From: Anaeromyxobacter soli
GTDB taxonomy: Bacteria; Myxococcota; Myxococcia; Myxococcales; Anaeromyxobacteraceae
Assembly (NCBI RefSeq): GCF_022808855.1
Contig: NZ_JAKZLF010000008.1
Coordinates: forward strand, 79,120 to 143,119
DNA length: 64,000 bases
Reading direction: 5' to 3'
Numbering within the stretch: the first letter of the stretch is position 1; the number at the start of each line of letters is the position of its first letter. A program made the translations under genes and the position numbers. Below, piece after piece: positions 2,602 to 18,117 of this stretch. The notes beneath the pieces are model-generated. The model saw nothing but the letters and a program-made list of their open reading frames with translations, was not told the origin of the DNA and searched no databases.

Positions 2602-2749
2602 GCATCCCACCCGACCGCCGCACGGACGCTCGTCCGCGCGGCGGTTGCGTATCGGCGCGCTCGTGCGCGCGGGTGGGTGAGCGGCGGTCACGGTGGTCAC
2701 GGCTGTAGCAGGTGCGGTGCCAGCCCGCGTCGCGGGCGAGGAGATCCGG

Positions 2750-3919
2750 ATGATCCGCGGCGAGCGGGTGGCGGCGATCCTGGCGGCAGGCGGCTCCGGC
2801 GTGCGCGCCGGGGTCCGAAAGCAGTGGCTCGAGGTCGGGGGCGAGACGGTCCTGCGGCGCGCGGCGCGCGTGCTCGCCGGCTGCGACTCCGTCGACGAGC
2901 TCGTGGCGGTGGTGCCCGCCGGCGAGGAGGAGCGCGGGCTCGCCGAGCTGGCAGGGCTCGGGAAGCCGGCGCGGGCTGTCGTGGGCGGCGCCGCGCGCGC
3001 CGACTCGGTGCGGAACGGCGTGCGCGCGGCGGACGGCTGCGGGATCGTGCTCGTGCACGACGCCGCCCGGCCGTTCGCGACCGCGGAGCTCGCGACGCGC
3101 GTGGCGGAGGCGGCGGCGCGCGACGGGGCGGCCCTGGCGGCCCTCCCGGTCACGGACACGGTGAAGCGGGCCGCGGCCCGCGCCGACGCCGCCGCGCCCG
3201 CGCGGGTCGAGGCGACGCTCGACCGGCGTGCGCTCTGGCTCGCGCAGACACCCCAGGGGTTCCGGCGGGCCCTGCTCCTCGAGGCGTTCGAGCGGGCGGG
3301 GGCCGCGGCGGCCGAGGCCACGGACGAGTGCGCGCTCGTCGAGGCCATGGGGGCGACCGTGACGCTCGTGCCCGGGGAGCCGGGGAACTTCAAGATCACC
3401 GGGCCCGAGGACGTCGCCCGGGCCCGGACCTTCCTCGAGGCCCCCGTGGCGATGGGGGTCGGCTACGACACCCACCGGTTCGCGGAGGGGCGCAGGCTCG
3501 TGCTCGGCGGCGTCGAGTTCGACGGGGACGGCCTCCTCGGCCACTCCGACGCGGACGTGTGCGCCCACGCCATCGGCGACGCGATCCTGGGCGCGGCCGG
3601 GCTCGGCGATCTCGGCCGCCACTTCCCCGACACCGACCCGCGCTGGAAGGGGGTCTCCTCGCTCGCGCTGCTCCGCGAGATCGCCGCGAAGGCGGCCGCC
3701 CGGGGCCTCCGGGTCGGGAACTGCGACGTGACGCTCGCGGCCCGGCGGCCCAAGATCGCGCCGCGCGCCGAGGAGATGCGCGCGCGGCTCGCCGAGGCGC
3801 TCGGCGTCGCGCCCGCGCAGGTGAACGTGAAGGCCACCACGGGCGAGGGGATGGGCTTCGTCGGGCGCGGCGAGGGGATCGCCGCGCACGCCGTCGCGCT
3901 CCTCGTCAGAGTGCGGTAG
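2750..3919 (+). CDS. ispDF: Bifunctional IspD-IspF of the MEP isoprenoid pathway
   Basis: A fusion of two enzymes of the non-mevalonate pathway. The N-terminal half is IspD (MEP cytidylyltransferase): AAILAAGGSGVRAGVRKQW nucleotide loop, VHDAARPF, LAQTPQGF and DECALVEAMG. From about residue 232 the IspF half (MECDP synthase) begins with MGVGYDTHRF and HSDADVCAHAIGDAILG, carrying the metal-binding Asp and His residues, and ends with VNVKATTGEGMGFVGRGEGI. The ATG at 2750 is preferred because GAGGAG lies just upstream and the conserved fold starts at once; a GTG at 2693 in the same frame would add 19 unconserved residues. Cys-tRNA synthetase follows after 11 bases. IspE is not in the window. Confidence 0.93.
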   Translation: MIRGERVAAILAAGGSGVRAGVRKQWLEVGGETVLRRAARVLAGCDSVDELVAVVPAGEEERGLAELAGLGKPARAVVGGAARADSVRNGVRAADGCGIVLVHDAARPFATAELATRVAEAAARDGAALAALPVTDTVKRAAARADAAAPARVEATLDRRALWLAQTPQGFRRALLLEAFERAGAAAAEATDECALVEAMGATVTLVPGEPGNFKITGPEDVARARTFLEAPVAMGVGYDTHRFAEGRRLVLGGVEFDGDGLLGHSDADVCAHAIGDAILGAAGLGDLGRHFPDTDPRWKGVSSLALLREIAAKAAARGLRVGNCDVTLAARRPKIAPRAEEMRARLAEALGVAPAQVNVKATTGEGMGFVGRGEGIAAHAVALLVRVR

Positions 3920-5941: not shown

Positions 5942-8038
<2,097 letters not shown>

Positions 8039-14445: not shown

Positions 14446-14643
14446 ATGCCGATCTACGAGTACGCCTGCGCCAGCTGCGAGAAGAAGTTCGAGGAGCTCA
14501 TCGTCCGCAAGACGGACGAGGCCGAGGTGAAGTGCCCGGCCTGCGGAGGGACCGAGGTCGCGCGGCAGATGTCGCGCCCCGCGGCCGCCCGCGTGGGCGG
14601 CTCCGGCGGTGGGGCGCCGCCCGCGTGCGGCCCCGTCGGTTGA
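14446..14643 (+). CDS. FmdB-family small zinc-ribbon protein
   Basis: 65 residues. The start MPIYEYACASCEKKFEELI and the second knuckle VKCPACGG are the FmdB/CxxC-CxxC putative regulatory family (named after a methanogen/methylotroph gene; role in most bacteria unknown). The tail is Gly/Ala-rich with one extra Cys. A 6-bp hairpin, CGGGCC-ctga-GGCCCG (14415-14430), sits immediately before the ribosome site and could affect translation. Confidence 0.85.
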   Translation: MPIYEYACASCEKKFEELIVRKTDEAEVKCPACGGTEVARQMSRPAAARVGGSGGGAPPACGPVG

Positions 14644-14785: not shown

Positions 14786-16621
14786 ATGGCCAGGACCTAC
14801 CGCGCGACCGACTACACCCTCGAGTTCGTGGCCGATCTCCTCGCCCGCGAGGGGATCCTCACCGACGACGCCAAGCGCACCGCCTTCGCGCGCGAGAACG
14901 TGCAGCGCGCCCGCCTGCTCCGCGATCACGCCTCGCGCGCGGGTGGCCGCGGGCTGCGCCGGGCGGAGCTCTCGCCCGTGGAGGTGCTGGCCTCGTTCGA
15001 GTTCCCCGACGCCCGGCGCGACTCGGAGCTCGTCGACGAGGACAAGGCCACCCAGGCCATCGCGCAGGCGGTGGGGATCCCTTACCGCAAGATCGACCCG
15101 CTGAAGCTGGACGCCCAGCTCATCACCCGCACCCTGTCGCGCCCGTTCGCGCGCAGGCACGCGGTGCTGCCGATCGAGCGCCGCAACGGGGCGCTCGTCG
15201 TGGCGGCGGCGAACCCGTTCGACCGCGAGCTGTTCGAGAACCTGCGCGGCCTGACCGGGGCCGAGATCGACCCGGTGCTCTCGTCGCCCTCCGACATCCA
15301 CCGCGCCATCGCCGAGGTCTACGGCTTCCGCCAGCAGATCTCGGAGGCGCACACCCAGCTCGAGCAGGGGCCGTCGGGGCCGGACGTCGCGAACCTCGAG
15401 CAGTTCGTGAACCTCTCGGGGATCGAGGCGCTCGAGGCGTCCTCGGAGCCGGTGATCGCGGCCGTCGAGTACCTGCTCCACTACGCGTTCGAGCAGCGGG
15501 CGAGCGACATCCACCTCGAGCCGCGGCGCGAGGAGTCCGTCATCCGGATGCGCATCGACGGGATCCTGCACCCGATCCACCGCATCCCGAAGGCGGTCCA
15601 CGGGGCCATCGCGAACCGGTTCAAGATCATGAGCCGGCTCGACATCTCGCTGAAGCGGCCGCAGGACGGGCGCATCCGCACGGCGCGCGGCGACGCCGAG
15701 ATGGAGCTGCGCGTCTCCACCATCCCGACGACCTTCGGCGACAAGGTCGTGATCCGCGTGCTCGACCCCAACGTGCTCGTGCGCGATCTCTCCGAGCTCG
15801 GGTTCCTGCCCGGCGAGCGCGACCAGCTCGAGCGGTGGCTCGTGCGGCCTCACGGGCTCGTGGTGGTGACCGGGCCGACCGGCAGCGGGAAGACGACCAC
15901 CCTGTACTCCGCGCTCCAGGCGCTCGCCTCGCCCGAGGTGAACGTCGTCACCATCGAGGATCCCATCGAGATGGTGCACGAGGAGTTCAACCAGATCGCG
16001 GCGAACGCGAAGACCGGCACCGGCTTCGCCGAGGCGCTGCGCCACGTGCTGCGCCAGGACCCCGACGTCATCATGGTGGGTGAGATCCGCGACGGCGAGA
16101 CCGCCACGCAGGCCGTCCAGGCCGCGCTCACGGGGCACATGGTCCTCACGACGCTCCACACGAACGACAGCGTGAGCGCCATCGCGCGCCTGCGCGACCT
16201 CGGCGTGCCGAGCTTCCTCGTCGCCGCGACGCTCACGGGCATCGTGGCGCAGCGGCTCGTCCGGCAGGTCTGCCCCTCCTGCGCGAGCGACGTGCCGCTC
16301 ACCGCGGACGAGATCCACGCGCTCGGCGTGCCTCACCCGGAGGACCACGCGGGCCAGCTCCTCGCGCGCCGCGGGCAGGGCTGCCCGAAGTGCCGGCACA
16401 CCGGGTACTACGGCCGGACCGGCATCTTCGAGGTGCTGCCGGTGAACGCGCGGCTGCGCCACCTCATCGCGGAGGGCGCGACGCCCGAGGTGCTGGCGCG
16501 GACCGCGCGGCAGGACGGGCTCGAGTCCCTGCGCGGGCACGCGGTCCGGAAGATCGCGGCGGGGGCGACCTCGTTCGAGGAGGCGTTCCGCGCCACCGCC
16601 GACGTGGAGGCCAGCGCGTGA
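14786..16621 (+). CDS. GspE/PilB-family assembly ATPase
   Basis: 611 residues, a secretion-type hexameric ATPase that powers pilus or type II pseudopilus polymerisation. An MshEN/T2SSE N-terminal domain (ATQAIAQAVGIPYRKIDP, LPIERRNGALVVAAANPFD) is followed by the catalytic domain: LLHYAFEQRASDIHLEP, Walker A GPTGSGKTTTLYSAL near residue 362, Walker B region RQDPDVIMVGEIRDGETA and the His box TTLHTNDS. A tetracysteine zinc module (CPSC and CPKCRHTGY) is present. No pil or gsp partner genes are in the window. Its stop overlaps the start of the next ATPase gene (GTGA), so the two are translationally coupled. Whether it serves pili or secretion cannot be told from this sequence. Confidence 0.9.
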   Translation: MARTYRATDYTLEFVADLLAREGILTDDAKRTAFARENVQRARLLRDHASRAGGRGLRRAELSPVEVLASFEFPDARRDSELVDEDKATQAIAQAVGIPYRKIDPLKLDAQLITRTLSRPFARRHAVLPIERRNGALVVAAANPFDRELFENLRGLTGAEIDPVLSSPSDIHRAIAEVYGFRQQISEAHTQLEQGPSGPDVANLEQFVNLSGIEALEASSEPVIAAVEYLLHYAFEQRASDIHLEPRREESVIRMRIDGILHPIHRIPKAVHGAIANRFKIMSRLDISLKRPQDGRIRTARGDAEMELRVSTIPTTFGDKVVIRVLDPNVLVRDLSELGFLPGERDQLERWLVRPHGLVVVTGPTGSGKTTTLYSALQALASPEVNVVTIEDPIEMVHEEFNQIAANAKTGTGFAEALRHVLRQDPDVIMVGEIRDGETATQAVQAALTGHMVLTTLHTNDSVSAIARLRDLGVPSFLVAATLTGIVAQRLVRQVCPSCASDVPLTADEIHALGVPHPEDHAGQLLARRGQGCPKCRHTGYYGRTGIFEVLPVNARLRHLIAEGATPEVLARTARQDGLESLRGHAVRKIAAGATSFEEAFRATADVEASA

Positions 16622-18117
16622 GCGCCATCGCCCAGGAGATCGCGGAGCTCTGGTCGGCGGGGACGCCGCTCCTCTACATCGTGACGGCCGAGGAGGAGCG
16701 GGCCGTGGCGGTGTGCGAGGCCGCCGCGGCGGGGTTCGGCGCGCGGGCCGCCGTCTGGTCTGCCCCGCGCGGCCTCGAGGGGCTCGCGCCCGCCGCCAAG
16801 GAGCCCGCCGCGCTGCTCGAGGCCCTCGCCCGGGCGCCGGCGCCGCTCATCGTGGTCGCGCTCGACTTCCACGAGGCCCTGCGCGATCCGCTGACGGTTC
16901 GCCGGGTCCGCGATCTCCTCCCGCGGCTCGCCGCGGAGGGGCGCTGCCTCGCCATCGTCGCGCCGCGGCTCGCCGTCCCGGACGGTCTCGCCGCCGACGT
17001 CGCGGTGCTCCGGCTGCCGCTCCCGGACGACGGCGAGCTCGCCGCCCTGCTCGAGGCCGTGCAGGTGGGCCTCGCGCACCCGGCCCCGGCGGCGGCGCTC
17101 GCGCCGGAGGTCCGCCACCGCGCGCTCGTCGCGGCCCGCGGGCTGTCCGAGGGGCAGGCGCGCCGCGCCTTCACCCGCGCGCTCCGGCGCGACCCGACCC
17201 TCGGCGCCGCCGGGCAGGCGATCATCGCCGCGGAGAAGAAGCGGCTCCTCGCGCGCGACCTGGGCCTCGAGCTCGTCGAGAGCGCGGAGGGTCCGTCGGA
17301 CCTGGGCGGGCTCGCCGGGTTCAAGGCCTGGATGGAGGAGCGCGCGCTCGCGTTCGACCCGGACGCGTCCCGCTTCGGCCTGCCGCCCCCGCGCGGCGTG
17401 CTGCTCGTGGGCGTGCAGGGCTGCGGGAAGTCGCTCGCCGCGAAGGCGGCCGCGGCGCGGCTGGGCGTGCCGATCCTCCGGCTCGACCTGCCGCGCGTCC
17501 TCGGGGCGAGCGCCGCCGAGGAGCGGCTCTCCGCCGCCCTGGAGGCCGCCGAGGCGCTGGCGCCCGTGGCCCTGTGGGTCGACGAGATCGAGAAGGGCTT
17601 CGCGGGCAGCGCCCCGGGGGACGGCGGCGAGCCCCGCGCCGCGCGGCTCCTCGGCGCGTTCTCCACCTGGCTCCAGGAGCGCCGCGGGCCCGTGTTCGTG
17701 GTGGCGACCGCGAACGACGTGTCGCGGCTTCCGCCCGAGCTCCTCCGGCGAGGCCGGTTCGACGAGCTGTTCTTCGTGGATCTCCCCGACCCCGAGGCGC
17801 GCCGGGAGATCCTCGGCCTGCACCTCCGCCGCCGGGGCCGCGACGCCGAGCAGATCGACGTCGGCGCCGTCGCCGAGCTCTGCGTGGAGTACTCGGGCGC
17901 CGAGCTCGAGCAGGTCGTCGTGGGGGCGCTCCACCGCGCCTACGCGCTGGGCCGCGACGTGGAGACGGGCGACCTGCGGCGCGTCGCGCAGGACCTGGTG
18001 CCGCTCTTCCGCACGTACGAGGACCAGATCAAGAGCCTGCGCGAGTGGGCCCGCGGGCGGGCGCGCGTGGCGGGTCGCGCGGGCGCGGTCGTGGATCTGT
18101 TCCGCCGCGCCCAGTAG
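16618..18117 (+). CDS. Ycf46-like AAA+ ATPase
   Basis: 499 residues. The N-terminal 230 residues form the domain that precedes AAA in Ycf46-type proteins (PLLYIVTAEEERAV, LDFHEALRDPLTVRRVRDL). The AAA+ domain has Walker A GVQGCGKSLAAKAAA, Walker B ALWVDEIEKGF, sensor-like FVVATANDVSRLPPELLRRGRFDELF with the arginine finger region, and a C-terminal helical lid (EYSGAELEQVVVGAL). Cyanobacterial Ycf46 has been linked to carbon-dioxide use, but the role elsewhere is unknown. The GTG start overlaps the GspE-like stop by 4 bases. Coupling to an assembly ATPase is unusual and suggests a shared machine, which is inference. Confidence 0.85.
   Translation: MSAIAQEIAELWSAGTPLLYIVTAEEERAVAVCEAAAAGFGARAAVWSAPRGLEGLAPAAKEPAALLEALARAPAPLIVVALDFHEALRDPLTVRRVRDLLPRLAAEGRCLAIVAPRLAVPDGLAADVAVLRLPLPDDGELAALLEAVQVGLAHPAPAAALAPEVRHRALVAARGLSEGQARRAFTRALRRDPTLGAAGQAIIAAEKKRLLARDLGLELVESAEGPSDLGGLAGFKAWMEERALAFDPDASRFGLPPPRGVLLVGVQGCGKSLAAKAAAARLGVPILRLDLPRVLGASAAEERLSAALEAAEALAPVALWVDEIEKGFAGSAPGDGGEPRAARLLGAFSTWLQERRGPVFVVATANDVSRLPPELLRRGRFDELFFVDLPDPEARREILGLHLRRRGRDAEQIDVGAVAELCVEYSGAELEQVVVGALHRAYALGRDVETGDLRRVAQDLVPLFRTYEDQIKSLREWARGRARVAGRAGAVVDLFRRAQ

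Follow-up and report, generated by a model that had tools for sequence, protein, structure and literature searches.

Two adjacent ATPase genes, here called A and B, lie in a 64,000-nucleotide stretch of the Anaeromyxobacter soli genome (contig NZ_JAKZLF010000008.1, positions 79,120 to 143,119; hereafter the window). Gene A encodes a predicted TfpB-like ATPase of the GspE/PilB type, and gene B an AAA+ ATPase whose two modules resemble the D1-D2 modules of Cdc48/p97, the first being degenerate. We tentatively propose, with slightly less than even confidence, that A is a second type IV pilus motor working on a shared PilC platform and that B remodels A. A preliminary description of this DNA had reported two overlapping ATPase genes sharing GTGA at their junction, and this was confirmed: both open reading frames (ORFs) and their motifs are intact (Table 1).

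TfpB is known from Acinetobacter baylyi, where, according to passages of PMC8213720, its gene is not syntenic with pilC and the protein is required for efficient extension, which it is proposed to initiate. TfpB would start extension and PilB would sustain it (passages of PMC8213720 and PMC11656802), and in the former passages the phylogeny given for TfpB covers Gammaproteobacteria only.

Gene A groups with TfpB

The preliminary description had left the first ATPase unplaced, and its position is now given by model scores and phylogeny. Among NCBIfam models, A scores best with TfpB (NF053534, 606.6 bits), followed by GspE (TIGR02533, 507.9 bits) and PilB (TIGR02538, 503.7 bits); the curated cut-offs of the three models are 850, 630.25 and 675.65 bits, respectively. 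TfpB is the top model for all three members of the A family that were scored, i.e. those of the window, of Myxococcus xanthus (630.3 bits) and of a Nitrospirota (675.5 bits), with margins over PilB and GspE of 96 to 139 bits. When whole genomes were searched with the TfpB model, the A gene was the top match in five out of five, ahead of the next place by 95 to 182 bits.

Two proteins score above the TfpB cut-off, one from a plasmid record of Acinetobacter baumannii (1065.4 bits) and one from Mitsuaria (854.8 bits). In a tree of 39 rows, A, its relatives from Myxococcota, Nitrospirota, Acidobacteriota and elsewhere, and both TfpBs form a single clade of 23 rows (100/100), and PilB and GspE from myxobacterial genomes form other groups outside it; in this tree two E. 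coli proteins, HofB and GspE, sit on long branches, and five rows have an odd composition. A 65-row tree built without TfpB separates A from PilB and GspE in the same way. A plain PilB and a plain GspE were both rejected as identities of A, on the score and on the separate clade.

A shares with PilB the MshEN plus T2SSE plan (Pfam, 9.2e-22 and 8.1e-121) and the Walker motifs, and with GspE the motor domain. Its motor motifs are conserved among orthologs, as is a tetracysteine that we take to be typical of assembly ATPases, and its structure model has a pLDDT of 84.1. MshEN, the receptor domain of MshE, binds cyclic di-GMP (c-di-GMP) through two 24-residue motifs (passages of PMC5013675). A resembles MshE in having the Pfam match, but the two copies of RLGxx..xxG..xxxxLxxxLxxQ were not found in it. 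Seven key residues of these motifs were scored, over the first 220 residues of A proteins, with shuffles, and over 320 residues of PilB/GspE-type proteins (leaving out L138, a bad extraction, and L162-L165, which are A members). Among 71 distinct A proteins, two have 2 of the key residues, 46 have 3, 22 have 4 and one has 5, close to the distribution of shuffled A sequences (5%, 73%, 20% and 1%, respectively); of 25 PilB/GspE-type proteins, 22 have 5 to 7 and the remaining three have 3 or 4. Since A lacks motifs that PilB keeps (six of the seven key residues in the PilB of the same genome), it would not be under direct c-di-GMP control by that route; binding in some other mode may occur and is compatible with the counts. 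The A. baumannii TfpB-type protein also lacks the c-di-GMP motif, carries the IDPLK signature of A, and is of similar length (585 versus 611 residues).

No platform gene accompanies A

In each of 12 A-bearing genomes, four T2SSF stretches exceed 100 bits, corresponding to two platforms of the GspF/PilC type, plus weaker ones; none was found on the contig of A or within 200 kb of it, and membership of A in a platform locus was rejected in all 12. The preliminary description had held that no pilus or secretion gene is near. This is borne out in the window by the 16 other ORFs given to Pfam, and in relatives by the absence of pilC or gspF near A in the 12 genomes. A must borrow a platform or use none.

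The A. soli genome encodes a GspE (721.9 bits) and a PilB (814.7 bits), both above the curated cut-offs and both lying with platforms on contigs C15 and C17, GspE adjoining GspF and PilB its own platform. PilB is also above its cut-off in eight of eight further A-bearing genomes. A position away from the platform, in all 12 genomes, and the presence of PilB in its own genome are further traits that A has in common with TfpB. One difference is that many Myxococcota A genes have a coupled AAA+ gene, whereas none is annotated beside the Acinetobacter and Mitsuaria genes; another is that the function of A here is predicted.

Gene B is a predicted two-module AAA+ ATPase

Pfam finds one AAA domain in B (8.3e-22). 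Its Walker A (GVQGCGKS), its Walker B (DEIEK) and R377 and R380, presumably the arginine-finger region, are invariant in 23 of 23 aligned proteins, a pattern expected of an active AAA+ module. With the AlphaFold model (pLDDT 81.6) as query, the top Foldseek matches are Cdc48 and p97, aligned across both modules (best E value 3.4e-19), and a sequence search also finds Cdc48/p97 for the AAA module. The first module, read from the sequence and the model, shows strands and helices in the order of a P-loop domain but no Walker A. B resembles Cdc48/p97 in its two modules and differs in this degenerate first module, in an identity of about 20% and in modest TM-scores.

We assume, with the preliminary description, that B is Ycf46-like, a name returned by none of the searches, including the Pfam and NCBIfam matches. 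Over 74-80% of its length, B is 33-39% identical to AAA family ATPases encoded on plasmids, cyanobacterial ones among them (20 listed rows out of 837), and none of these is named Ycf46. In a tree of 36 B-like proteins, all 22 paired members fall into one subfamily of 28 rows (100/100); outside it are paralogs about 42% identical to B (loci L051 and L056-L059; families f1, f2, f5 and f17), locus L061 and two plasmid outgroups. Thus, among Ycf46-like ATPases, the subfamily of B is a clade apart from unlinked myxobacterial paralogs. The paired B genes as one clade were rejected (approximately unbiased test, p 1.3e-5), because unlinked copies of family f12 and others fall among them. The genome of A. 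soli showed no second full-length B-like paralog, its best other match being 36% identical over query residues 199-495 (G000:C21:38248-39156), and several genomes of the same genus have a second one at about 43%.

The A-B pair is conserved in Myxococcota

Among 193 Myxococcota genomes, B has some match in 137, of two kinds, subfamily members and paralogs; among the matches listed, the subfamily is present in at least 46 genomes (leaving out an unclear case, G164, and a partial 48% match in G187, and counting partial matches in G114, G175, G186 and G191). A is present in all of these 46; in 39 it immediately precedes B in the same orientation, and in two (G175, G186) a contig end falls between them. 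The preliminary description had named two observations that would count against it, a pair that is not conserved and a first ATPase that lies at a pil or gsp locus in relatives; the pair is conserved, and no platform locus adjoins A in the 12 genomes. Chance neighbourhood was rejected as an account of the pair; related genomes are not independent, and these counts are not probabilities. The closest named relatives seen are Anaeromyxobacter genomes, e.g. A. terrae (97% identical in A and 96% in B).

In 31 paired loci that were read (L054 and L127 being the same genome), a four-base overlap, ATGA in some and GTGA in others, is possible in 16; the start of B lies further on, by up to about 200 bases, in 14, and no B start was found in L120. 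Of the top B loci, 28 of 29 are paired with A, the exception (L034) beginning at a contig end. At L168 a gene that by eye is uracil-DNA-glycosylase-like (6621-7289) separates A from B, the usual gene order being kept otherwise.

A alone is more widespread. A-type genes (E <= 1e-135) are found in 145 of the 193 Myxococcota genomes, one per genome. A scan of a collection of 84,980 species, made with a family-specific stretch of A resting on one peptide pattern, gave 89 confirmed loci; among the best 80, 11 are labelled Nitrospirae, Nitrospirota or Nitrospiraceae and others Acidobacteria, Thermoanaerobaculia, Latescibacterota, Edwardsbacteria or UBP2. B is downstream in 25 of these 80; no B follows A in the loci with those non-Myxococcota labels, including eight Nitrospirota loci with at least 1.4 kb after A, and some others end too soon. 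One scan of viral contigs with a short A stretch gave no A relative.

Some records call for separate mention. In two Acidobacteria loci a further GspE-type ATPase gene follows A (L170:6579-9023, with an apparent GAF domain in front, and L206). L239 (BNCN01000003.1), titled Comamonas sp., carries a Myxococcus-type A gene (54% identical to A, like Myxococcus loci) and may be mislabelled; L252 (NZ_CP104448.1) is a chromosome-like A. baumannii 'plasmid' of 4.09 Mb with three places similar to A.

A proposed role for A and B

According to our proposal, A would be a hexameric TfpB-like extension ATPase, a second type IV pilus motor that shares the cell's single PilC platform with PilB; it would help to start extension, as proposed for Acinetobacter TfpB, and would be independent of direct c-di-GMP control via MshEN motifs. 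B, a Cdc48-like ATPase with an inactive first and an active second module, would be translated in step with A and act on it, most likely by remodelling: it could free the A hexamer from the platform, or open or build that hexamer, so that A and PilB can exchange. We infer the motor role of A on PilC from phylogeny, and we likewise infer the hexamers, the driving of pili by A in this organism, A as the client of B and the direction of the effect of B. The narrower idea that B is a dedicated Cdc48-type remodeller at the pilus base, where it would put together, release or exchange the A hexamer, with A as the first client for a Ycf46-like protein, is in our judgement doubtful.

Several observations weigh against this proposal. 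The score of A, 606.6 bits, falls below the TfpB equivalog cut-off of 850, which no place in the five genomes searched reaches, and the TfpB rows of the tree are A. baumannii and Mitsuaria stand-ins for A. baylyi TfpB; lying in the TfpB clade yet below the cut-off, A is named TfpB-like by its sequence and not a certified TfpB. Of 15 genomes in which A is missing at the threshold of E <= 1e-135, 13 have a PilB above its cut-off, so pilus genes can be present without A; as PilB occurs with and without it, A would be an addition to the pilus and not a condition of it. The best Foldseek matches of B have whole-chain TM-scores of 0.40-0.51 and an rmsd of about 16 Å. A and B are apart in five of the 46 genomes (G002, G026, G019, G012, G007). 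Up to 99 of the 145 A-bearing genomes showed no B of this subfamily, 46 being a lower bound for B, and they include nearly all of family f2, so the A motor does not require B. The point most exposed to doubt is B, whose contact with A we propose from its gene and which A does without in so many genomes.

Family f2 corresponds to Myxococcaceae by its named Myxococcus loci. M. xanthus has A, and M. xanthus-type genomes have A without B. In many f2 loci A lies, without B, near hemA-, hemC- or hemD-like genes (one f2 locus, L072, has B), and in families f20, f23, f25 and f28 near an rpsA-like gene, again without B, in six of six loci; these neighbours are named from a reading of their sequences.

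From these data an alternative arises that we regard as possible although rather unlikely: A would be a TfpB-like pilus motor, and B a general Ycf46-type operon companion with another client, kept beside A for expression or by history. It would explain why A so often occurs without B, why both are kept but separated in the five genomes named, and why unlinked f12 genes share the subfamily clade of B; moreover no A adjoins the B-like paralogs outside the subfamily in the six loci read (L051, L056-L059, L061), so that B-like proteins have a life without A. It is less at ease with the 39 adjacencies out of 46, which span several classes and often have overlapping ends, and with the absence of any listed subfamily member from a genome without A, although shared ancestry inflates both counts.

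Improbable, in our view, is that A has ceased to be a filament motor and now serves in signalling or regulation, such as the control of exopolysaccharide (EPS), with B as its partner. The 12 genomes without a platform gene near A could be read in this way, as could the PilZ-FHA and Hsp70 neighbours of some families and the report of M. xanthus PilB as an EPS signalling protein (PMC5544727); however, the motor motifs and tetracysteine of A are conserved, and its clade includes TfpB, which drives extension (passages of PMC8213720). We consider it very improbable that A works with GspF, the platform of type II secretion, rather than with PilC: apart from PilC, GspF is the one strong platform of this kind that the 12 genomes have, and the GspE and PilB scores of A are nearly equal, but in the tree A falls with TfpB and away from GspE, and the characterised relative is a pilus motor.

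The preliminary description had suggested an unstudied two-ATPase device. The first half of that claim stands within the literature searched: no paper on the A-B pair was found by titles and abstract openings on Ycf46 (20 of 32 papers, two of them on cyanobacteria), myxobacterial PilB paralogs, orphan GspE, TfpB or AAA+ proteins acting on PilB, subscription papers being mostly outside this search, and the words 'orphan' and 'AAA' are absent from the main text of a myxobacterial pilus survey (PMC6060248). The second half does not: a free-standing device unrelated to pili would agree with the orphan location and the conserved pair, but it is hardly credible, since the clade of A holds TfpB, published as a second extension motor (passages of PMC8213720), which makes a regulated pilus motor likelier, and since A persists in many genomes without B.

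Gene features and surroundings

Alignment of 23 orthologs and the list of in-frame starts indicate that A starts at the ATG at 14786 rather than at the upstream GTG at 14609.

Table 1. Positions of the A and B genes and their motifs in the window
Feature	Positions	Strand	Description
Gene A	14786..16621	+	611 aa, intact ORF; GspE/PilB-type ATPase with degenerate MshEN region and T2SSE motor domain (Pfam, NCBIfam, tree)
A, MshEN match	15074..15331	+	residues 97-182; both RLG...LxxxLxxQ c-di-GMP motifs not found; signature KIDPLKLD...SRPFARRH present
A, Walker A GPTGSGKT	15872..15895	+	residues 363-370; identical in 22/23 aligned orthologs (S to A in L042)
A, tetracysteine CxxC...CxxC	16271..16393	+	C496, C499, C533, C536; invariant in 45/45 aligned
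GTGA overlap	16618..16621	+	GTG start of B within the last four bases of A, overlapping the TGA stop of A
Gene B	16618..18117	+	499 aa, intact ORF; AAA+ ATPase with degenerate P-loop-like module, then AAA module with intact motifs (Pfam AAA, AlphaFold, Foldseek)
B, Walker A GVQGCGKS	17410..17433	+	residues 265-272; invariant in 23/23 aligned
B, Walker B WVDEIEK	17575..17595	+	residues 320-326; D322 and E323 invariant in 23/23

Of the 16 other ORFs, 13 matched Pfam and three have no family. The matches are UvrC, a PLP enzyme (cysteine synthase), a hexapeptide acetyltransferase (serine O-acetyltransferase models), GNAT, an acetyl-CoA hydrolase/transferase, GPAT, inositol monophosphatase, DUF2721, DNA polymerase I, IspD-IspF, HD, a histidine kinase and a sigma-54 activator; the IspD-IspF match is a fusion gene of isoprenoid synthesis at 2693-3919. 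A PADLOC search for defence systems gave weak matches only. Between 34637 and 41897, overlapping ORFs of 700 to 1157 aa lie on both strands, and a codon-position caller picked none of the longest.

No PilZ-FHA or Hsp70 gene was seen at the A-B pair of the window. Six of the eight loci of family f13 have a PilZ-FHA gene after the pair (L044, L046, L076, L078, L079, L080; Pfam on L046 and L076), one of the other two loci ending too soon, and in most loci a gpsA-like gene stands between. In family f4 an Hsp70-type gene directly precedes A in three of three loci (L047:12199-14076, L053:8820-10307 and L121:2224-4143; the first two confirmed by Pfam, to which L121 was not given), that of L047 having a sub-threshold PilZ match at its N-terminus; in one of two f10 loci such a gene lies about 0.8 kb before A (L042:13251-15845). 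PilZ-DnaK chaperones are known in M. xanthus (passages of PMC10313047), where StkA, an Hsp70, acts at a point between pili and EPS (PMC4319316). These neighbours fit a pilus or c-di-GMP setting and prove nothing.

Significance of the A-B pair

TfpB-like motors appear to reach beyond Gammaproteobacteria, to Myxococcota including M. xanthus and to contigs labelled Nitrospirota and Acidobacteria. As A lacks the c-di-GMP motif, a cell could have two extension motors on a single platform, one controlled by c-di-GMP and the other independent of it. The coupled gene B offers a concrete, testable client for a protein family of unknown role, and the contributions of the two proteins are separable, because M. 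xanthus-type genomes have A alone and Anaeromyxobacter has both. If B does remodel A, the pair would represent a layer of type IV pilus control in which one ATPase acts on another, a layer not met in the titles, abstracts and passages of the literature searched.

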